Source: an uncultured Poribacteria bacterium (GTDB lineage: Bacteria; Poribacteria; WGA-4E; WGA-3G). From it: 64,000 nt of DNA. A program made the translations under genes and the position numbers. Under the pieces are notes generated by a model that was not told where the DNA came from, searched no databases, and saw only the letters and a list, made by a program, of their open reading frames with translations. The stretch covers positions 3,525,200-3,589,199 of the forward strand of contig OX639973.1 of the NCBI GenBank assembly GCA_951828385.1, in the 5' to 3' direction. How positions within the stretch are numbered: the first letter of the stretch is position 1; each line of letters begins with the position of its first letter. Positions 27,556-39,542 of this stretch are shown one piece after another.

Positions 27556-28608
27556 CTAATCTTTTCGAGAGGCATCAATCTGCACCGCAGCTGCCCCCGT
27601 CTTCCGAGAGGAGCCCTTAAACACAGCGTAAAGATACCAAAATGCGGGGACCAACAGTACACCGCCCACACCGAGCACAATCAGTACCGGACGCAGTACA
27701 GTATCTGGTGCAGCCGTATTTGAAAAGGTTAAATCCGGCGTGACAAGGGACGGATACTGTGCCAACCCCCAACCCAAAACGATGAGCGTAACCTGTATTG
27801 GGACGAGGATACGCGCAAGGCGAAATTGACGGTTCCAAAGCGTCCAGATGGCCCACAATGCCACCGCACCTGTTAAAATTTGAAACGGGAGTGACCAAGG
27901 GGCATTACCGAGTCCACGTCGAATTGTAGGAGCACCTTCAGCAGATAAGATAAAACTCAGTCCTGCCATCGCGCCGACACTCACTGCAGCAATGAGAGCA
28001 CGCCGTCTAAAATCCTCTCGCAACGCGGTGTCATCCGTCTCCAGCGTGAGATATACCGCTGCAAGCAAGGCGCAAAGCGTCAATGTGAAAAGACCTATCG
28101 CAAACGGAAACGGCGCAAGCCACGCTGAGATGAAGTCGGTGTCTACCTGTCCGCTTTCTATATCAACATGAATCGTGCCGGAGGCAACCGCGCCCAACGT
28201 AATTCCCAACATCACAGGCGTGATGACACTCCCAATAGCGAATACGCGGCTCCAACGGCGGTGTGTCGTATCCGATTGGTCATCGTAGGTACGAAATATA
28301 AACGCCGATCCGCGTAGCACAATCCCGATGAGCATTAAGGTTAGCGGAATGTGTAACGCTGTGCTAATCGCCGCGAATGCAACCGGAAACGCCACGAAGA
28401 GCAACACGATAATCACAATCAGCCAGACGTGGTTCGCTTCCCAGATAGGTGCGATGGCTTCTGTGATGAGTGACCGTTGTGCTTTTGCGCGGGGACCTGT
28501 CGCGAACAGATCCCAGACACCGCCACCAAAATCCGCGCCACCTGTCAGCATATAGATAATCAGGGAGATAAGCATCACGCCTGCAACGCAGAGTTCAAGT
28601 GTTAGCAT
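27556..28608 (-). CDS. cydB: Cytochrome bd ubiquinol oxidase subunit II
   Basis: 350 residues, 8-9 membrane segments. It starts MLTLELCVAGVMLISLIIYMLTGGADFGGGVWDL, the CydB signature, with the TEAIAPIWEANHVWLI region intact. It has a well-spaced GGAG upstream and follows cydA by 12 bp. Together with CydA it forms the high-affinity bd-type quinol oxidase. Confidence 0.94.
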   Translation of the reverse strand: MLTLELCVAGVMLISLIIYMLTGGADFGGGVWDLFATGPRAKAQRSLITEAIAPIWEANHVWLIVIIVLLFVAFPVAFAAISTALHIPLTLMLIGIVLRGSAFIFRTYDDQSDTTHRRWSRVFAIGSVITPVMLGITLGAVASGTIHVDIESGQVDTDFISAWLAPFPFAIGLFTLTLCALLAAVYLTLETDDTALREDFRRRALIAAVSVGAMAGLSFILSAEGAPTIRRGLGNAPWSLPFQILTGAVALWAIWTLWNRQFRLARILVPIQVTLIVLGWGLAQYPSLVTPDLTFSNTAAPDTVLRPVLIVLGVGGVLLVPAFWYLYAVFKGSSRKTGAAAVQIDASRKD

Positions 28609-28620
28609 CGGATTTCTCCA

Positions 28621-29931
28621 TTAATTTGCATCATACAAGCGCGGACTCTGGAAAATATGACGGCGTAAGAGGACAACAACAATAATTGAAAGAAAAATGT
28701 AAAGGATAGTAAAACTAACAAACGGAACAACGAGATTCGGCATTGGAGTTACCGCATCTGCTGTACGCATGATATTGTAGATAACCCACGGTTGCCGCCC
28801 GACCTCTGTGACCGTCCAACCCGCTTCAATGGCAATAAATCCAAGTGGCGTACAGAACGTAACGCACCGAAGATACCAGTGTTGGGTTGGTAGACTTTTG
28901 TGTTTCCACGCCAGCCAGCCTCCAATGATACCGACAGTAATCAAGACCATCCCACACGCGACCATAATCTGAAATGCGAAATGCACGATTGCCACCGGTG
29001 GACGATCTTCGCGCGGCACTTCCTTGAGCCCCATGATTTCCGCGTCGAAATCAAAATGTGCAAGGAAACTGAGTGCTTTCGGAATCTCAAGTGCATACCG
29101 GGTTTCCTCGGCATCTTCATCCGGAATACCGCCGATGCGTAATGGTGCGCCGCGCTCCGTCTCCCATTGTGCTTCCATCGCTGCGAGTTTAATAGGTTGG
29201 TACTTTGCGACGCGCTTCGCACTAATATCGCCGGAAATCGGTTGGAGGAGGGCGAACACCGCGCCGACACTCAAAGCAATCGCAAACGCTCGACGATGGA
29301 ATAGGTTATCGGGGTCACGTCTGAGAAAATAGGCGTGGATACCGGCGACTGCAAACCCGACTGCGAGAAAGGCAGCGATCGTCATGTGAAGTGCCTGGCT
29401 GAAAGAGGAAGGGTTCAACATTGCCGCAATCGGGTCAACGTTTGTCACCTTGCCATCGACAATAGAGAACCCAGTCGGTGTGTTCATCCATGCGTTAGCA
29501 GTAACAACAAAGATACCGGAAAATGTGCCGCCGAGTACCACCATCATCCCCGCAAACCAGTGTGCATATTTCGGGATACGGTCCCAACCGTAGAGGTAAA
29601 GTCCTAAGAAGATTGCCTCAAGGAAAAATGCGAACCCTTCCAACGAAAACGGCATGCCGATGATCGGACCGGCGTAAGCCATGAAATTGGGCCACAACAG
29701 ACCGAGTTCAAAAGACAAAACAGTCCCTGAGACCGCGCCTACAGCGAACATGATAGCTGTGCCTTTTGCCCACTGTTTCGCCAGCGTCAGGTAGACCTCT
29801 TCGCGTGTTTTGAGCCAGAACCCTTCAGCAATCACCATCAGCAGTGGCATCGCTATGCCGACTGCTGCGAAAATGATGTGGAATGCGAGTGACATCGCCA
29901 TTTGTGCGCGTGCTGCCAATAAATCTGTCAT
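28621..29931 (-). CDS. cydA: Cytochrome bd ubiquinol oxidase subunit I
   Basis: 436 residues from the ATG at 29931, chosen for GGAGGA seven bases upstream; a longer open frame adds 19 unlikely residues. Haem b595 ligand His is in AFHIIFAAVG, the WPNFMAYAGPIIGMPF and LEGFAFFLEAIFLGLYLYGW segments are typical, and the quinol-binding loop around ISAKRVAKYQPIKLAAME is of the short type associated with cyanide-insensitive oxidases. It forms an operon with cydB and gives respiration at low oxygen. Confidence 0.94.
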   Translation of the reverse strand: MTDLLAARAQMAMSLAFHIIFAAVGIAMPLLMVIAEGFWLKTREEVYLTLAKQWAKGTAIMFAVGAVSGTVLSFELGLLWPNFMAYAGPIIGMPFSLEGFAFFLEAIFLGLYLYGWDRIPKYAHWFAGMMVVLGGTFSGIFVVTANAWMNTPTGFSIVDGKVTNVDPIAAMLNPSSFSQALHMTIAAFLAVGFAVAGIHAYFLRRDPDNLFHRRAFAIALSVGAVFALLQPISGDISAKRVAKYQPIKLAAMEAQWETERGAPLRIGGIPDEDAEETRYALEIPKALSFLAHFDFDAEIMGLKEVPREDRPPVAIVHFAFQIMVACGMVLITVGIIGGWLAWKHKSLPTQHWYLRCVTFCTPLGFIAIEAGWTVTEVGRQPWVIYNIMRTADAVTPMPNLVVPFVSFTILYIFLSIIVVVLLRRHIFQSPRLYDAN

Positions 29932-30013
29932 GAGAGTGTCCTCCTTCATGCACGAGCTGCACACCGGCGAGTGGTCCCAAGCACCCACCCTATTTGTTAA
30001 CTATAGAGACGCA

Positions 30014-31175: not shown

Positions 31176-32129
31176 ATGCTTAAAGCAGGATTTATTGGTG
31201 CAGGTGGGCGTAGTCAAGGTGCACATTACCCAAACGTTAATCGCTTGGAAGATGATGTTGAGATGCTCGGTGCGTGTGAATTAGACGAGTCAAAACTCGC
31301 ACAAGTCGCACAAAAATACGAGTTTCCGCATACCTTCACAGACCACCGGAAGATGTTAGATACCTTAGATTTAGATGTCGTCTATTGTGTAATGAACGAG
31401 AAGTGGATTTTGCAACCCGCTTTGGATTGCCTGAATGCTGGTAAGCATCTGTTCATAGAAAAACCGCCCGGTGCCAATAGCGATGAAACGCAACAATTAC
31501 TTGAGGCAGCGATTGCAAACGATGTCTACTGCATGGTAGGGTTTCAGCGTAGATACGCCGCTGTCACACGCGAAGCTATGCGGCGCGTCGCGGAAAAGGG
31601 ACCTGTCACATTGGCAGTCGCCACCTTCAACAAACAGATGTTGGGGCAGAACCGAGAATTTACGACAACCCTTTGGAACGATGTCTGCCACGTCATCGAT
31701 CTACTCCGGTATATGGCAGGTGGCGAACCGGTGGAAGTCACCGCGCATCGCGACACGTTTGGTGCGGAACAACGCAACTTTTACACTGCCTTTGTCCGCT
31801 TTGATAACAACGTTACAGGTGTACTTTTTGGGAGTCGCGCATCGGGTGGACGTGTCTTACGTTCCGAATTGCACGGTGTCGGCATCGGTTGCTATATGAA
31901 GATTCCTGAAGAAATCGAAATTTACGAGGATAACAACAGAAGCACTATGGGCGGCTGGGAAGTTGATGGGGTTGATCAGCGCGACTCACCGAGTTATGAA
32001 GGCGTGCTAACCATGCATCAACATTTCGCCGACAGCGTCCGCAACCGGACAGTTCCACTCACAGACCTCCGTGATGTCATCCACTCCATTCATCTCGTGG
32101 ATCAGATAGAAGGTCCTTTACCTAATTAA
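31176..32129 (+). CDS. Gfo/Idh/MocA family oxidoreductase
   Basis: 317 residues. Rossmann N-terminus with FIGAGGRSQGAHYPNV, then the catalytic-Lys motif HLFIEKPPGANSDE near residue 95. The C-terminal alpha/beta dimer domain ends with VLTMHQHFADSVRN. It oxidises or reduces a sugar, inositol or related polyol with NAD(P). Start ATG with AAAGGAAAG upstream. The PhyH gene follows after 17 bp, so the two probably act on one pathway. Confidence 0.9.
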   Translation: MLKAGFIGAGGRSQGAHYPNVNRLEDDVEMLGACELDESKLAQVAQKYEFPHTFTDHRKMLDTLDLDVVYCVMNEKWILQPALDCLNAGKHLFIEKPPGANSDETQQLLEAAIANDVYCMVGFQRRYAAVTREAMRRVAEKGPVTLAVATFNKQMLGQNREFTTTLWNDVCHVIDLLRYMAGGEPVEVTAHRDTFGAEQRNFYTAFVRFDNNVTGVLFGSRASGGRVLRSELHGVGIGCYMKIPEEIEIYEDNNRSTMGGWEVDGVDQRDSPSYEGVLTMHQHFADSVRNRTVPLTDLRDVIHSIHLVDQIEGPLPN

Positions 32130-32146
32130 TTTGTTCGTGTACCTGG

Positions 32147-33043
32147 ATGAAACATGACGAAGAATTGGAGATCGAATCTATGCTTGATGAACGCCATCTA
32201 CAACATCAGCTTACTGACGAACAACGTAACAGTCTAAATGAGGACGGGTATTTCACCGTTGAAAACGCACTTCCGTTAGACCTTGTTGAACGCCTTGAAG
32301 CACGGGTGGATCGCATCTACCAGAACCATCTCGATGCTGGCTATGATCCACATACTAAAAACCAACTGACTGCGGATAAGAACTTTTTTTACCCAAACTT
32401 CCTTGGCAAAGATCAGATTTTCGTAAACATTTTGGATTGGTATAAAACGTTCCCGAAAGTATGGGGCATTATGGGATGGAACATCTACTCCTACCATAGC
32501 CACTTCATTATCACACCACCACGCCCTGAAGCGGTTCGGGGCAGACCTGCACCACTGGGTTGGCACCAAGACAGTGGACGCGTTAACATTGAAATCGAAA
32601 GCTCACCACGACCGCGTCTCTCCATCAAAGTTGTTTACTGGCTGTCTGACTGTTCCGAAACAGGGCGCGGGAATTTTTATGTCATTCCCGGAAGCCATCT
32701 GTGGGACAAATTTGAACGTCCAAAAGATGGGTCGTTGCCGGAGGGTGCGACACCTATCTGTTGTAAACAAGGGGATGCTGTTTTCTTCGACCGTCGCCTA
32801 TGGCACGCCCGCAGTGAAAATGATTCTGACATCACGCGTAAAGGTCTCTTTTACGGATACGGTTACCGTTGGTTACGGAGCAAGGACAACATGACAATTC
32901 CACACGAGATGTTTGAGCGGAACGATCCAATTCGACAGCAGTTGCTCGGTGGTGGGACTAATGCGAACGGGCATTTCTCGCCCAAGGACGCAGACGTTCC
33001 TTTGAAAGTATGGCTTGAAGAGCACGGTGCTATCTCGAACTAA
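32147..33043 (+). CDS. Phytanoyl-CoA dioxygenase (PhyH) family protein
   Basis: 298 residues by the first ATG; an ATG at 32180 (MLDERHLQHQ) has GGAG nine bases upstream and may be the true start. Metal ligands: HQD in LGWHQDSGRVN and the distal His in FDRRLWHARSEN; FYVIPGSHLWDKF is the usual loop. Fe(II)/2-oxoglutarate oxygenase of unknown substrate, cotranscribed with the dehydrogenase upstream. Confidence 0.88.
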   Translation: MKHDEELEIESMLDERHLQHQLTDEQRNSLNEDGYFTVENALPLDLVERLEARVDRIYQNHLDAGYDPHTKNQLTADKNFFYPNFLGKDQIFVNILDWYKTFPKVWGIMGWNIYSYHSHFIITPPRPEAVRGRPAPLGWHQDSGRVNIEIESSPRPRLSIKVVYWLSDCSETGRGNFYVIPGSHLWDKFERPKDGSLPEGATPICCKQGDAVFFDRRLWHARSENDSDITRKGLFYGYGYRWLRSKDNMTIPHEMFERNDPIRQQLLGGGTNANGHFSPKDADVPLKVWLEEHGAISN

Positions 33044-33054
33044 GCACAAGAATC

Positions 33055-33075
33055 GGGGTTACAAACCCCTCCCAC
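33055..33075 (+). repeat. Hairpin repeat with ACA loop and TCCCAC tail
   Basis: GGGGTT-ACA-AACCCC then TCCCAC, preceded by AATC, just downstream of the PhyH gene. Same form as 14831-14851 with different arms. It could also serve as a terminator. Confidence 0.65.
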
Positions 33076-33125
33076 AAGAGTGATTGGTGACAAATTGAAT
33101 AGCTCCAGACGGAAGACCAATTCAC

Positions 33126-33154
33126 TTGACACGCATCAGAAAATAGCGTATAAT
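33126..33154 (+). promoter_or_regulatory. Perfect consensus promoter of the selenoprotein gene
   Basis: TTGACA (33126-33131), exactly 17 bp, TATAAT (33149-33154), 35 bp before the start codon. One of the strongest possible sigma70 promoters, suggesting high constitutive expression. Confidence 0.8.
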
Positions 33155-33189
33155 TTCATTAACTAACGTATTCATGGAGGCATAACGCG

Positions 33190-34200
33190 ATGTTTCAAAC
33201 GCGGCTTAACTTAAGCGTGTTGGCTGTTATCCTCACGACAGTCATTTTGATTGCAGCAGCTTCAGGGGAGAAGGCAGTGACAACTCCAGACACATTAAAA
33301 GTAGGAATGATCGCCCCCGATTTTACCTTGAAAGATGAAGAAGGCGTTGAGCGGAGTCTCAGCGACTATATCGGGCAGAAGAGTATCGTCCTCGCATTTT
33401 ATCCAAAAGATTTCACCGGTGGCTGAACGGCTGAACTTTGCTCGCTCCGGGATAGTTTGAGCGAGATAGAAGCAACCGGAAGTGTTCTTTTCGGTGTTAG
33501 CGTTGACGATGTTGAATCGCATAAACGGTTTAGAGCAGAACAAAAATTTGGGTTTTCCCTGTTAGCGGACACCGAATTTGAGGTGAGCAAACAGTACAGC
33601 GGGATCATCGAGCGTTTCAACGCTTCAAAACGGACAACCTTCATCATCGATAAAGCAGGATACATCCGCGCTATTGACACAGAAGTCAATGTCAAAACGC
33701 ACGGTGAAGATGTTGTCGCCCTGCTTAAGGCAGTGTTACCGAAGATAGAAGTCGGGCAACCTGCGCCAGATTTCATCGCAACGGACAGTACAGGCAAAAG
33801 TTATCAGCTCAGCGAGTTAATCGAGAAAAAGAACGTCGTTCTATCGTTTTACCCGCGCGACTTCGGGCGTGGCTGAACGGCGCAAGTTTGCTCGCTCCGG
33901 GATGAGTCGAGTCATTTAGCAAAATACGATGCCCAGATTTTTGGGATCACCCACAATGACGCAGCTTCGCGTCAGAAATTTTCTGAAGAAAATCAGTTGA
34001 ACTTCCCGCTTTTGGTAGACACTGGCCGTAATCTCGCGCTCCTGTACGGTGCAACGGATGCCTCAGATGGCGCAATCCAACGGTCCGCTATCATCATTGA
34101 TAAAACCGGGAAGATTGTGGAGATTGACCAAAAGGTGAACGCCAGTACACACGGAACAGATTTAGTTAATTTCTTCAAAACTTTGGAAACGTCAAATTAA
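33190..34200 (+). CDS. Tandem two-domain peroxiredoxin (BCP/PrxQ-like) with two selenocysteines
   Basis: A single 336-residue frame broken only by TGA at codon 79 (33424-33426) and TGA at codon 229 (33874-33876). A signal peptide or anchor (LSVLAVILTTVILIAAASG) precedes two AhpC/TSA domains (about 34-180 and 184-336). Each TGA replaces the peroxidatic Cys: FYPKDFTGG-U-TAELCSLRD and FYPRDFGRG-U-TAQVCSLRD, compared with the FYPKDFTPGCTxxxCxxRD of BCP. The UxxxxC spacing equals the CxxxxC of PrxQ. A hairpin follows each TGA. Predicted periplasmic peroxide reductase using Sec. GGAGG lies before ATG 33190. No sel genes are in the window, so Sec decoding is inferred. Standard gene callers would split it into three. 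Confidence 0.85.
33441..33465 (+). promoter_or_regulatory. Candidate bacterial SECIS hairpin after the first UGA
   Basis: CTCGCTC (33441-33447), loop CGGGATAGTTT, GAGCGAG (33459-33465): a perfect 7-bp stem beginning 15 nt after the UGA, the distance expected for a SelB-binding bSECIS inside the reading frame. Confidence 0.6.
33891..33911 (+). promoter_or_regulatory. Candidate bacterial SECIS hairpin after the second UGA
   Basis: CTCGCTC (33891-33897), loop CGGGAT, then GAG-T-CGAG (33904-33911): the same 7 bp with one bulged U on the 3' arm, again starting 15 nt after the UGA. The apical loop begins CGGGAU as in the first copy. Confidence 0.6.
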
Positions 34201-34203
34201 TAG

Positions 34204-34818
34204 ATGGTGCGTAGCAATTTATCAACAATTCCGGCAGGTATAGCGTGGGGCACGTCTGTCTTGTTTAGCCCATTTTTGGTGCCAATCGCCACGGCTGTCG
34301 GTGTTGTTCAAAAGCATGCGGACCCGCAAAACGCCCTCCGGTGGTTAGCGATTGTTGCGCTATTTGTTACTGTACTGCCCGCACTCTCAATAGCACTCAT
34401 GGTGCGGTTTGCGAAAGTGAGCGATTTTCATCTACAGAACAGAGAGGAACGGCTCTTACCGTTATGCTGCACGCTTGTCAGTATGATTATAGGGACGGTT
34501 CTCCTCCACCAGTTGGGTGCGGCACGGGAAATCGTTTGGGCGGGAGTCGCCTACATCACCAATAGTCTCATTTTCTCGGCAATTACCCCGATTTGGAAAA
34601 TCAGCTTTCACAGTAGCGTTGCCACCGGATGTGTCACTGTCCTCGTCATGCTCGTTAACCCACACTTCGGCTGGCTATTTCTGTTGATTCCATTGATTTC
34701 ATGGGCGCGGGTTTACCGAAAACGTCACACGCTCCTCCAAACCGTTGTCGGCGCGGTACTGGCTGTTGGGAATACGGTCATTGTTCTGTATATAGTACGA
34801 CTTGGCAGCCAAAGTTAA
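34204..34818 (+). CDS. PAP2-like (phosphatidic acid phosphatase-related) membrane protein
   Basis: 204 residues, about six membrane helices. KVSDFHLQNREERLLPL after the second helix and WKISFHSSVATG followed by WARVYRKRHTLLQTVVGA resemble the PAP2 active-site motifs (KxSxHx6 and Rx6Hx3Q/D). A membrane lipid-phosphate phosphatase or related role is likely, though the last acidic residue is Gln here. It begins 4 bp after the peroxiredoxin stop codon, so it is probably cotranscribed. No own Shine-Dalgarno. Confidence 0.6.
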   Translation: MVRSNLSTIPAGIAWGTSVLFSPFLVPIATAVGVVQKHADPQNALRWLAIVALFVTVLPALSIALMVRFAKVSDFHLQNREERLLPLCCTLVSMIIGTVLLHQLGAAREIVWAGVAYITNSLIFSAITPIWKISFHSSVATGCVTVLVMLVNPHFGWLFLLIPLISWARVYRKRHTLLQTVVGAVLAVGNTVIVLYIVRLGSQS

Positions 34819-34868
34819 AGAACAACAGTCTGATGGATGATACCATTTCTAAAAATAGAGTAGCTTAT

Positions 34869-37800
34869 ATGCAAATCAAACATCTATTTTTGCCCCTCAC
34901 GATTATCTGCACGCTTTTACTGCCAAGTTTCGTCCGCGCGCAACAGGATGATCCGCAAGTGGTGAACGTCCCCGATCCGAATTTAGCAGCAGCGATCAGA
35001 AACGCGACTGATGCCGACACAATTACGACGCACACGATGCTGACTCTGACGAGTTTATATGCCAACGGTTACGGGATAGAAGACCTCACCGGCCTTGAAC
35101 ACGCACACAACCTCTACACTTTGGGGCTTAGTGATAACAACATCTCGGATATATCACCACTCGCCGAACTAAAAAACGCACAAGACCTCAGAAGTTTAAC
35201 TCTTTCTCATAACAACATCTCGGACATATCACCACTCGCCGAACTCACGCAAGTGGGCTATTTGCATCTTGATAATAACAACATCTCGGACATATCGCCT
35301 CTCGCTGAACTCAAAAATTTGAGGCAGTTGCTTCTTTACGATAACAACATCTCGGATATATCGCCCCTCGCCGAACTCACGCAAGTGGAGCGATTGTGGC
35401 TTGACGATAACAACATCTCGGACATATCACCTCTTGCCGAATTAAAAAACTTGGAGAAGTTGCTTCTTCGCGATAACAATATCTCGGATGTATCCCCTCT
35501 CGCCGGACTTACACAGCTGGAACAATTGGGGCTTCATCGTAACAACATCTCGGATATATCCCCTCTCGCTGGACTTACAAAACTGATACTATCGTGGGAC
35601 ATATTACTTTATGCTAAAAACCTTTCAGAACTTTTACCCTTCGCTGGACGTCTGGAACATTTGACTTTTAGCTATAAAAACATCTCGAACATATCACCTC
35701 TCGCTGAATTCAAAAACTTGGTTTCGTTGGATCTTCGTAATAACAACATATCGGATGTATCACCCCTCGCCGAACTCACGCAACTTAATTCTTTGGTTCT
35801 TCAGGATAACAACATCTCGGATATATCACCCCTTGCCGAACTCACACAACTCAATTCTTTGAATCTTGAGAATAATAATATCTTCGATGTATCACCCCTT
35901 GCCGAACTCACACAACTCAATTCTTTGGTTCTTCAGAGTAACAACATCTCGGATGTATCACCATTGGTCGGGTTAATAAATCTGAAACAGCCCGGGTACC
36001 TTTACAACGCGTTGTCTCTTAGTAACAATCCACTGAATTATACCTCCATCAACACACATATCCCGGCCATGCAAGCGAAAGGGATCGACGTAGCATTTTG
36101 GGAGCGAGTCCCAGAGACACTCCTACAAATATCAGGGGACACCCAACAAGGCGGTGTCAATTCGACATTGCCGCTCCCGTTTGTCGTGGAAGTGTTGGAT
36201 CAGCGGCGCGGACGGTTTTCAGGGGTACCGGTGACATTTACCATCACTGCGGGGGAAGGCAAACTCAGCGCGACAACCGTTGAAACAGACTTCTACGGTA
36301 GAGTATCGGTACATTTGCGGATGGGAGCAACACCCGGTACGACAACTGTCGAGGTAAGTGCACCGAATATCTCGGAACCCCTACTGTTTACAGCAACCAC
36401 CATCCCGGAAAGCCCACCGGTGATTGTCCGCGATGCGAACCTTCGAGCGAAGATAATGGAAACCCTCGGCACACCCTTCGGTGAGGTGCTAACCCACACG
36501 GATATGTTGCAGCTGCGGACATTGGCGGCGGACAATATGAACATCTATGATCTCACAGGGTTGGAATATGCCGCTAATCTGACGAGTCTATCGCTGCAGG
36601 ACAACATGATAGCAAATGTGCTACCCCTATTTGCATTAACGCAACTGACAACGTTGGACCTCAGGAACAATTGGTTATCGGATGTGTCGCCCTTGACGAA
36701 CTTAGTCCATTTAAAAAACGGGCAAGGAGTATTACTGCAAGGCAACCGCCTGAATACTGCCGCTATCCATAAATATATTCCATACCTACAGACAGCCGGT
36801 GTGAACGTCAGTTTTGATAGTACCGTGACGGAGTCAGAGTATATCGTACGACCCATCTATCTCCGTGGGCCCGGTCTTCGACATGACCCCGAAACGTTTG
36901 AAGAGATAAAAAACTTGATGCGGGAGGTACAACAATTTTACGCCGATCAGATGGAAATCTACGGCTTCGGCAGGAAGACCTTCCAGTTTGAGACCGACGC
37001 GGACGGGAACGCCTTTGTGTATCACGTTAACGGAAGATTTTTTGGAGAAAACGCGTTACCAACATTCAATAAATTTGATTCATCAAAGAATATTATTCGT
37101 CTTCTCTTCGTGGAGGATCTGAATCCCAACACAGTGAGCTATCCATGCGGTCAAGGGCACGGCGATAGCCATAGCGGATATGCAGAAGTGGCCTGCTTTA
37201 GTTTCATAACAGTTGCCCATGAACTTGGACACGCTTTTGGCTTACCTCACGATTTCCGCTATCGTCCTTCAAGTCCTGCTGGTTATATAATGTCGTACGG
37301 GAGCCAGAGAATGCTCTCCCAATGTGCGGCGGAGTGGTTGGATGTCCACCGCTACTTCAACACTGAGCGCACTGCCGCTGATGGAGACGTTACAATCGAG
37401 GTGTTACCGCCTCTCCGACATCCACCGAATGCTATCCGTCTCCGCTTTAATGTAACTGCACCCGCGGGACTTCACCAAGCACGGATTTCTGGAATTGATC
37501 AAATTGGAACGTTTAGTGGTCGCAAGGAGCCTGGATTGATTGCTTGTAAACTTTTAAACGGAAATCAGAGCGAAACTGTCGATTTTGTCATCCCCCCTTT
37601 ATCTCCTGACACGTTCGGTGTAGTCCTGACAGTTGTTGATAAGCATGGAAATACCGGAAGCGCAGGAAGCGGTACAGTCGATGTGCCTTCTCTGCTACCT
37701 GAACAACCCGTCTCAATACCGGACCCCAATTTAGCAGCGGCAATCCGAAAAGAGATTGGCGAGGCTATCACGACCCGGACACTGTTTAATCTAATAGAGC

Positions 37801-39542
37801 TTTCTGCCGGAGAGATAACAGACCTCACCGGTATAGAATACGCAAGCAACCTCAGAGTATTGGGACTTTCTGGTTCAATATCAGATATTTCACCCTTATC
37901 AGGTTTGACACAATTACGTCGTTTGTCTCTTGGTGGTAACAACATATCGGATATAACCGCTCTTACCGAACTCAAAAACTTGAGAGGTTTATACCTTGAT
38001 AATAACAACATATCGGATATAACCTCTCTTGCCGAACTCAAAGAGATCGATTGGTTGTCGCTTCGCAATAACAACATATCGGATATATCCCCTCTTGCCG
38101 AACCCACACAGATCCGTTGGTTGTATCTTTCCAACAACAACATTTCGGACGTAGTGCCTCTCGTTAAGCTCGCTTCGGTGATTCCATCTCGGAATTCATT
38201 GCATCTTTATCTTGATCAGAATAATATCTCAGATATATCCCCCTTTTTGGCGTTAGATCCCCCGGAAACGAGGCGGCTATGGTTATCTCTGTGGGGCAAT
38301 CCGTTGAACGATGCCTCCAGAAATAGACACATCCCGGCACTGCAGGCAAAAGGGATTCAATTTACATTTTCACCTTTTATCCAAGCTTATGCACGAAGCG
38401 AAATCACGGGACCCTGGCTCTGGATGATCGCACCTACTATACAGTTCGAGGGTGGTGCGCACTCCATAGATGTGGATTCGCTCGCCGCTGCCAGCAACGG
38501 AACTGTCACGGAAGCAGATGTCGCAATCCACGGGGCAAACGCAGGTGATAGGCTCGGAAATTTCGTCTGGACACCCGGACGTATTTCTGCTCTCCAAAAC
38601 AATAATATCAATGACTGTCTCAACAGGATCGGGATGATAGAAGGCGATGTGAACGACCATTCGGCTTACGCCTTGTTTTCGTGGGTCTCTGATACCGATG
38701 GAACACGCAGGATGTATGTCGGTTATGATGATGCCATCAAAATCTGGCTCAACGGGGAAATGGTTTACAGAACTGCTGCGAATAGGCACCTATATAATTC
38801 TGGTGCGAGCTTTCAAGTGAATTTAAAGCGTGGACAGAATCTGCTGCTTGTAAAGGTAAGTCAATGGGAAGGGGATTGGAGTATGTTCGTCGGTATTGAT
38901 GGGTTTGAAGACATACAGGCACCCGACATAGCGGCGGATGTCAACGGCGATGGCGTGGTGAACGTTCAAGACCTCGTGCTGGTGTCCGCTAACTTTGGGG
39001 AGACGGGTCAGCAGAGTGCGGATGTCAACGGGGATGGTGTCGTCAACATTGCCGACCTCGTCTTGATAGCAGGTGCGTTAGGGAACGCGGCAGCTGCGCC
39101 TTCAGCATTCCGTGGGACTGCTACGGCGTTACCGTCGCGCGCCACAATTGAGCAGTGGTTGGTAGATGCATACCGGCTGCCGCGCCTTGACGCGCGTTTG
39201 GCGCGTGGGATCGCGTGGCTGGAACATATCTTGGCGGCGTTAGTACCAGAGGAGACAGCCGTGCTGACGAATTATCCGAACCCTTTCAACCCGGAGACGT
39301 GGATACCCTACGAGTTGGCAACACCTGCGGAAGTGACGCTGCGTATCTATGCTGTAGAGGGTGCTTTGGTGCGGCGTTTGGTTTTGGGGCATAGAGCAGC
39401 AGGCATCTATCGTAGCAAGAGTCGTGCGGCGTATTGGGATGGCAGGAACGCGCAAGGCGAGAAAGTCGCGAGCGGTGTCTATTTCTATACATTCTCAGCA
39501 GGCGATTTTGAAGCCACGCGGAAGATGTTAGTAAGGAAATAA
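34869..39542 (+). CDS. Giant secreted LRR / metzincin / dockerin protein with T9SS-like sorting domain
   Basis: About 1557 residues from the ATG at 34869, which starts a signal peptide (MQIKHLFLPLTIICTLLLPS); an ATG at 34833 is possible. In order: a first internalin-type LRR block (about 30-400, ~15 repeats around NNISDISPLAEL); a Big/invasin-like Ig domain (VPVTFTITAGEGKLSA); a short LRR block; a zinc metalloprotease with HELGHAFGLPH and Met-turn YIMSYG; a third LRR block; a carbohydrate-binding-like sandwich (DDAIKIWLNGEMVYRT); a two-repeat type I dockerin (ADVNGDGVVNVQDLVLVSAN, ADVNGDGVVNIADLVLIAGA); and a C-terminal NYPNPFNPETWIPYEL...ATRKMLVRK domain typical of type IX secretion cargo. 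Probably a cell-surface protease and adhesin. Confidence 0.88.
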   Translation: MQIKHLFLPLTIICTLLLPSFVRAQQDDPQVVNVPDPNLAAAIRNATDADTITTHTMLTLTSLYANGYGIEDLTGLEHAHNLYTLGLSDNNISDISPLAELKNAQDLRSLTLSHNNISDISPLAELTQVGYLHLDNNNISDISPLAELKNLRQLLLYDNNISDISPLAELTQVERLWLDDNNISDISPLAELKNLEKLLLRDNNISDVSPLAGLTQLEQLGLHRNNISDISPLAGLTKLILSWDILLYAKNLSELLPFAGRLEHLTFSYKNISNISPLAEFKNLVSLDLRNNNISDVSPLAELTQLNSLVLQDNNISDISPLAELTQLNSLNLENNNIFDVSPLAELTQLNSLVLQSNNISDVSPLVGLINLKQPGYLYNALSLSNNPLNYTSINTHIPAMQAKGIDVAFWERVPETLLQISGDTQQGGVNSTLPLPFVVEVLDQRRGRFSGVPVTFTITAGEGKLSATTVETDFYGRVSVHLRMGATPGTTTVEVSAPNISEPLLFTATTIPESPPVIVRDANLRAKIMETLGTPFGEVLTHTDMLQLRTLAADNMNIYDLTGLEYAANLTSLSLQDNMIANVLPLFALTQLTTLDLRNNWLSDVSPLTNLVHLKNGQGVLLQGNRLNTAAIHKYIPYLQTAGVNVSFDSTVTESEYIVRPIYLRGPGLRHDPETFEEIKNLMREVQQFYADQMEIYGFGRKTFQFETDADGNAFVYHVNGRFFGENALPTFNKFDSSKNIIRLLFVEDLNPNTVSYPCGQGHGDSHSGYAEVACFSFITVAHELGHAFGLPHDFRYRPSSPAGYIMSYGSQRMLSQCAAEWLDVHRYFNTERTAADGDVTIEVLPPLRHPPNAIRLRFNVTAPAGLHQARISGIDQIGTFSGRKEPGLIACKLLNGNQSETVDFVIPPLSPDTFGVVLTVVDKHGNTGSAGSGTVDVPSLLPEQPVSIPDPNLAAAIRKEIGEAITTRTLFNLIELSAGEITDLTGIEYASNLRVLGLSGSISDISPLSGLTQLRRLSLGGNNISDITALTELKNLRGLYLDNNNISDITSLAELKEIDWLSLRNNNISDISPLAEPTQIRWLYLSNNNISDVVPLVKLASVIPSRNSLHLYLDQNNISDISPFLALDPPETRRLWLSLWGNPLNDASRNRHIPALQAKGIQFTFSPFIQAYARSEITGPWLWMIAPTIQFEGGAHSIDVDSLAAASNGTVTEADVAIHGANAGDRLGNFVWTPGRISALQNNNINDCLNRIGMIEGDVNDHSAYALFSWVSDTDGTRRMYVGYDDAIKIWLNGEMVYRTAANRHLYNSGASFQVNLKRGQNLLLVKVSQWEGDWSMFVGIDGFEDIQAPDIAADVNGDGVVNVQDLVLVSANFGETGQQSADVNGDGVVNIADLVLIAGALGNAAAAPSAFRGTATALPSRATIEQWLVDAYRLPRLDARLARGIAWLEHILAALVPEETAVLTNYPNPFNPETWIPYELATPAEVTLRIYAVEGALVRRLVLGHRAAGIYRSKSRAAYWDGRNAQGEKVASGVYFYTFSAGDFEATRKMLVRK
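35127..35980 (+). repeat. LRR-encoding tandem DNA repeats, block 1
   Basis: About a dozen near-identical copies of the sequence around AACAACATCTCGGATATATC, spaced 66-75 bp (22-25 codons). The very high nucleotide identity suggests recent expansion or ongoing repeat gain and loss. Confidence 0.85.
37880..38245 (+). repeat. LRR-encoding tandem DNA repeats, block 2
   Basis: Five to six further copies of the AACAACATATCGGATAT repeat at roughly 66-bp spacing in the third LRR block of the same gene. Confidence 0.8.

Follow-up and report, generated by a model that had tools for sequence, protein, structure and literature searches.

The locus described here raises two questions: whether a gene that contains two in-frame TGA codons is read through both of them as a selenoprotein, and what two selenocysteine (Sec) residues would do in one protein. 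The gene lies in a stretch of 64,000 nucleotides (hereafter, the window) from an uncultured Poribacteria bacterium, and its features are on the forward strand. The frame at positions 33190..34200 encodes 336 amino acids followed by TAA, and it contains exactly two internal stops, both of which are TGA, at codon 79 (33424..33426, context DFTGG-U-TAELC) and at codon 229 (33874..33876, context DFGRG-U-TAQVC). An earlier note on this DNA, made from the letters alone, had placed these two codons at the peroxidatic positions of two consecutive AhpC/TSA domains, and the frame reading together with the Pfam matches bears this out.

Domain 1 is an AhpC-TSA domain (33301..33672; residues 38-161 by Pfam PF00578 and the AF2 model), and domain 2 is a Redoxin/AhpC-TSA domain (33751..34143; residues 188-318 by PF08534 and the AF2 model). 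When the protein was read through both TGA codons, PF00578 matched it in two stretches with an E value of 5.6e-68. The comparison with the peroxiredoxin (Prx) families thus identified both domains as AhpC-TSA, and NCBIfam NF006960 was passed with 176.1 bits against a cut-off of 140, this being a whole-protein score over two stretches. The cut-off of the PrxU equivalog NF040737 was missed (107.9 bits against 270). Under translation table 11 the gene falls into pieces, and the only fragment of at least 80 amino acids in its frame has 139 residues.

The region upstream of the gene has a perfect promoter and a Shine-Dalgarno sequence, as the earlier note had also remarked. A sigma-70-type promoter, TTGACA-17-TATAAT, is located at 33126..33154 and matches the consensus at 12 of 12 positions; of the 62 regions upstream of orthologues, 29 show the same full match, that of the window included. 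As read from the sequence, a Shine-Dalgarno GGAGG (33176..33180) stands 9 nt upstream of the ATG, and of the 32 loci belonging to the window's genus, 31 have an SD-like match at -14. The first codons (33190..33261) specify a probable signal peptide with an Arg, a hydrophobic stretch and an Ala-rich site, recognized by inspection and with its boundary set by eye. In a simple hydropathy count, the N-terminal maximum over 15 residues was 2.89 in the window's protein; it reached 1.6 or more in 59 of the 62 loci and stayed below that line in the other three, L048, L055 and L161. On the basis of this hydrophobic N-terminus, we think that the tandem enzyme is probably exported past the inner membrane.

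We searched 84 genomes of the phylum for the tandem gene at E values up to 1e-30. It was found in 64 of the 72 genomes of one order and in none of the 12 genomes outside that order, where at most single-domain matches occurred. Among the 64, the gene is complete in 62 and interrupted by runs of N in two (G034 and G066). The eight genomes of the order in which it was not found are G003, G004, G012, G014, G022 and G067, which are 73-89% complete, and G073 and G038, each 96% complete; G038 holds instead a stand-alone Sec gene of the domain-2 type (L057, on contig G038:C35). Two TGA-containing gene patterns gave 0 and 0 matches in viral contigs.

The TGA pair is strictly kept. Both sites carried TGA in 63 of the 63 tandem loci that are readable at both, as they did in 43 of 43 loci of a smaller set. 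The 63 include L145, which is split by a run of N and was left out of the 62 complete loci; they leave out L049, in which a gap of N covers site 1 while site 2 is TGA, the paralogue L143, the stand-alone L057 and the single-domain loci. All 62 complete loci, one per genome, have the pair, and no TAA, TAG or frameshift occurs across both domains. In two genomes (G044 and G049) a comparison of the whole gene gave an additional TAA or TAG; when only the domain part was taken, the two TGA codons were the sole stops. The pair is retained over a range of 51-100% identity among orthologues, and the conservation that the earlier note had seen on both sides of each TGA is matched by the orthologues, which keep the frame on both sides. 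Cys was found at the corresponding position in single-domain relatives, and none of the tandems seen in the 84 genomes had Cys at site 1 or at site 2. The sole sign of loss is in genome G080, which holds a two-TGA copy (L144) and a diverged paralogue (L143, on G080:C108) in which Ser stands at site 1 and site 2 is still TGA. Domain 2 of this paralogue is UxxxxC, and the paralogue possibly represents the start of a loss of domain 1 activity.

These distributions bear on whether the locus is merely a decaying gene whose Cys codons have mutated to stops, as the two in-frame stops under table 11 and the single fragment of at least 80 amino acids might suggest. Decay is refuted by the orthologues. 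That is, the frames are intact in the 62 complete tandem loci and the TGA codons persist in orthologues down to 51% identity; moreover, the silent sites after the TGA codons are constrained, as described below, and the promoter is perfect in nearly half of the upstream regions. We regard the chance that this explanation is correct as negligible.

The genome of the window, which forms a single contig of 6.66 Mb, contains all four components of the Sec machinery that were looked for. SelA is full-length (523.8 bits), the C-terminal domain of SelB lies in a 647-aa frame that adjoins the tRNA-Sec gene, the tRNA-Sec itself scores 76.4 bits and has the anticodon tca according to ARAGORN, and SelD was found with 362.6 bits. 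The selD gene (L166, C1:1330118-1331041) has one in-frame TGA of its own, and SelD is in this respect a selenoprotein candidate itself. Among the 81 genomes examined for SelB, 58 of the 62 that bear the tandem gave a match; the four misses (G033, G034, G042 and G064) are multi-contig drafts.

It could be considered that TGA has been reassigned throughout this genome. We rejected this candidate because TGA serves as a stop: among 47 long ORFs in the window that do not overlap, and that are mechanical ORFs and not curated genes, 13 have TGA as their stop codon, and one of these, RuvB, has a complete C-terminal domain, with QueA starting one codon after its TGA. A narrower alternative is that the two UGA codons are read as another amino acid, either as Cys by a tRNA with a UCA anticodon or as Trp. 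The Cys homologues, which carry Cys at the peroxidatic position, agree with the former. Against this, ARAGORN typed 46 tRNA hits, in which Trp has CCA and Cys has GCA, and no UCA anticodon occurred among them apart from that of tRNA-Sec; as the scan went on to score 150 of its 293 first-look candidates, a very odd tRNA could escape it. The presence of SelA, SelB and SelD and a constrained hairpin 3' of each UGA also oppose a reading other than Sec, which we consider very improbable.

Because UGA acts as a genuine stop for other genes of the window, early termination must compete with its decoding. The two UGA codons could accordingly be selenium-responsive switches, low selenium giving short products that end at codon 78 or 228 and that matter in themselves. 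A product of 78 codons would, however, miss most of a Prx fold, and we think such a switch rather unlikely.

PMC9312934 places the bacterial SECIS element immediately 3' of the UGA. We analyzed the synonymous codons among loci that share the amino acid and expressed their variation as a ratio to expectation. Over the 62 loci the mean ratio was 0.753. The ratio fell to 0.328 in the 14 codons after the second TGA (rank 4 of 283 windows of codons) and to 0.418 in the 14 codons after the first (rank 16 of 283); since the loci are related, these ranks are not a probability. The 14 lowest of the 283 values all lie at the two TGA codons, and the lowest value elsewhere is 0.667. The low variation at both TGA codons is repeated in the genus alone and, when L013 is included, in the sister genera and in the remaining three families; it was seen as well in an earlier analysis of 43 loci.

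A hairpin can be drawn in each of these constrained segments, at about +16 to +41 nt from the UGA. The one after TGA 1 (33441..33465, CTCGCTC...GAGCGAG) and the one after TGA 2 (33890..33912, 8 pairs with one bulge and the 6-nt loop CGGGAT) are candidate bacterial SECIS elements by their pairing and by the synonymous constraint. Across loci the site 2 hairpin keeps 8 pairs and a 6-nt CGKGAT loop, and outside family f1 the site 1 hairpin takes nearly the site 2 form. At site 2, 99.5% of 424 cells were paired, compared with 25-39% (maximum 39.2%) when the pairing was slid along the alignment; at site 1 the values were 90.6% of 385 cells and 17-52% (maximum 52.2%). Because the hairpin columns hardly vary, pairing also remained high after shuffling, at 98.6% of cells for site 2 and 87.4% for site 1. 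Two pairs were changed on both sides at each hairpin, a number reached by 1 of 500 shuffles at site 2 and by 67 of 500 at site 1, and the covariation indicated by the alignments is thus modest at both. When the two sites were pooled, RNAalifold detected no shared structure; for site 1 pooled over all families it returned three weak pairs only. In single-sequence folds at the sites of the window, the native fold was matched or bettered by 16, 117, 56 and 99 of 200 shuffles (z -1.48 to 0.25), and a search of the window against Rfam at the gathering scores gave 0 hits. We infer that the hairpins after the UGA codons may bind SelB as SECIS elements.

Taken together, the conserved UGA pair, the Sec machinery, and the hairpins with their silent-site constraint support what the earlier note had proposed, a fused protein with two Sec sites. 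We therefore think that the gene very probably encodes a genuine double selenoprotein, in which two PrxQ/BCP-type domains are fused and UGA specifies Sec at each peroxidatic position; this judgment is drawn from comparison of sequences.

Are the two sites then equivalent, as the earlier note took them to be? The residues around them do not agree with this. The position +5 from Sec is Cys in domain 2 of 63 of 63 loci, whereas in domain 1 it is Cys in 24, Gln in 13, Arg in 12, Asn in 9, Lys in 4 and Ser in 1. In the window, these positions are Cys234 (33889..33891), the candidate resolving Cys of domain 2 in a UxxxxC motif, and Cys84 (33439..33441), +5 from Sec79. The 24 occurrences of Cys84 are all in the window's genus, and for this reason it looks like a late gain. 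The Thr of the PxxxT motif shows the opposite pattern: domain 1 has it in 63 of 63 loci (PxxxT in 61, LxxxT in 2), whereas domain 2 has it in 13 of 63 (families f2-f4) and has Gly in the other 50, all of family f1. In the window this Gly is residue 226 (33865..33867), and the motif PxxxTxx(C/U) is present in domain 1 and absent from domain 2, which reads PxxxG. R115 and R265 of A1 are invariant in 25 of 25 rows; we take them to be the catalytic Arg residues of the two domains. Other Cys residues in the domains, the N-terminal segment aside, occur in just 3 of 62 loci, and the usual redox set is thus Sec79, Sec229 and Cys234, joined by Cys84 in most of the window's genus. Judged by these patterns, the two active sites are asymmetric. 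The likeness to BCP/PrxQ enzymes with CxxxxC that the earlier note had pointed out holds for domain 2 with its conserved UxxxxC, but not for domain 1, which is basically a Sec-only site.

The origin of the tandem was analyzed with a maximum-likelihood tree of 85 rows, which included 21 of the 63 tandem loci. Domain 1 (support 99/98) and domain 2 (100/99) form separate clades that are sisters at 97/87; the tree has several long branches and some open forks. L057 falls inside the domain 2 clade, and the single-domain Sec and Cys relatives fall apart from the joint clade. Since the two clades are sisters, the tree implies one internal duplication before the order arose; that is, as far as the tree can be followed, the tandem is the product of one duplication older than the order. 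In a genome collection of 84,980 species, a scan with Cys-codon patterns, which could detect Cys forms only, gave 130 relatives, and the best 80 of them are all single-domain Cys proteins with P...T..C; none of these 80 loci has a second Prx region within the same table-11 frame. Some Cys relatives have no +5 Cys, and carry His, Arg or Lys there. The single-domain Sec Prx genes of the phylum (L058-L060, L062 and L162) have P...T..UT and no +5 Cys, like domain 1 in most loci, but differ from the tandem in having one domain and in standing outside its clade. Other Prx-like genes of the phylum, L175, L176 and L177 among them, have one in-frame TGA in contexts such as SWUPFC, TWUPN and SVUAS, and these suggest a larger selenoproteome in the phylum.

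An AF2 model made from 35 rows had a mean pLDDT of 88.8 and a pTM of 0.73, and its secondary structure is that expected for two Prx domains; the 34 helper rows were single-domain, and on average 33 of the 34 covered domain 1 and almost none domain 2. Its best PDB matches were BcpB, BCP, Bcp1 and AhpE, each over about 150 residues, and none of the best 50 of 1368 matches was a tandem-length structure. Each domain resembles PrxQ/BCP (NF006960 PRK09437; PF00578) in its AhpC-TSA fold family, in the P...(T)..U motif, in the Arg and, for domain 2, in the +5 Cys. Unlike PrxQ/BCP, the tandem has two domains, Sec at both peroxidatic sites and a hydrophobic N-terminal segment; the +5 Cys is missing from its domain 1 in 39 of the 63 loci, and the Thr from its domain 2 in the window's family. 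AhpE of Mycobacterium tuberculosis (1xvw and others) is a 1-Cys enzyme according to the PDB titles, and domain 1 likewise mostly has no +5 Cys; AhpE differs from the tandem in being a single domain, and its peroxidatic residue is Cys, not Sec. The Sec-containing peroxiredoxin TxxU (NF040737, peroxi_PrxU) also has a peroxidatic Sec that follows PxxxTxx, but Table 1 of PMC13188914 assigns one Sec to that family, compared with two in the tandem.

Prokaryotic proteins with two Sec residues are known. PMC13188914, a 2026 review of 119 selenoprotein families or subfamilies, includes in its Table 1 the Prx-like UxxC/UxxU proteins with 1-2 Sec, MduS, MbdU and the HUGP/GUXX-star fusion, and it lists several double-Sec fusions. 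These share two Sec per chain with the tandem, and are set apart from it by the names given there. The family table of that review names nothing as two Prx domains with one peroxidatic Sec each. The earlier note was aware of no fused two-Sec peroxiredoxin, and none came up in the literature searched, which was covered at the level of abstracts, with subscription papers and preprints outside its scope. The novelty of the architecture is accordingly provisional.

What, then, might the second site do? One possibility, which we put at a little under even, is that domain 2 is the built-in partner of the peroxidase domain 1, as the residue patterns hint. In this mechanism, Sec79, assisted by Pro72, Thr76 and the invariant Arg, would reduce peroxide in domain 1 and be converted to selenenic acid. 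The Sec229-Cys234 pair of domain 2 would then restore Sec79, which ancestrally lacked a resolving Cys; the pair could belong to the same chain or to a partner chain, and would in turn be reduced by a thioredoxin-like protein. Domain 2 of families f2-f4, which has PxxxT, may also be a peroxidase, while that of the window's family, with Gly at the Thr position, may be specialized as the partner. A more specific version, a relay of selenium in cis, is only a tentative proposal and less likely to be correct: the selenenic acid of Sec79 would be resolved by Sec229 as a diselenide or by Cys234 as a selenylsulfide, and domain 2, in an exported enzyme, would be a dedicated resolving module that has given up its catalytic Thr.

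About as likely as the partner role, and likewise somewhat short of an even chance, is that two independent selenoperoxidases are simply tethered. Domain 1 would then be a 1-Sec enzyme recycled by outside thiols, like the 1-Cys AhpE, and domain 2 a self-resolving UxxxxC PrxQ. This also describes a double selenoprotein, and it differs from the partner role only in how domain 1 is recycled. AhpE being among the best structural matches, the lack of a +5 Cys in some Cys relatives and in the single-domain Sec relatives, the occurrence of domain 2 alone as the Sec gene L057, and the retention of PxxxT in domain 2 of 13 loci all agree with it. The fusion is nevertheless retained in most genomes of the order, and Gly in place of the catalytic Thr in domain 2 of 50 loci would be odd for an independent peroxidase. 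Against the partner role, the paralogue L143, which has lost the Sec of domain 1 and kept that of domain 2, and the stand-alone L057 suggest that domain 2 is more than a servant of domain 1.

The neighbourhood was also compared. In family f1, a GFO/IDH oxidoreductase, a PhyH dioxygenase, the tandem gene and a PAP2-like gene stay together (31176-34818 in the window). In f2-f4, flanks of about 1.5 to 4 kb showed none of these neighbours next to the tandem gene, and for this reason they tell little about its function. Downstream, at 34701-39542, there is an ORF of 1613 amino acids with many leucine-rich 'NNISDISPLAEL' repeats, the first start codon of which lies inside the end of the PAP2-like gene. 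An LRR protein and PhyH genes may be in keeping with the Poribacteria. Subunits I and II of a cytochrome bd oxidase are encoded on the minus strand at 27556-29988, about 3 kb upstream of the tandem gene, and this nearby oxidase may fit a microaerobic, peroxide-prone life.

A double-Sec peroxiredoxin of this architecture would be an addition to the list of selenoproteins, and it is easy to miss because simple ORF calling under table 11 splits the gene at each of the UGA codons. UGA would be decoded twice in one mRNA, at sites 450 nt apart, and the pair has been kept across four families of one order. Because the two sites diverged after one duplication, the family would offer a natural experiment on the role of a second selenium atom and of a resolving Cys.
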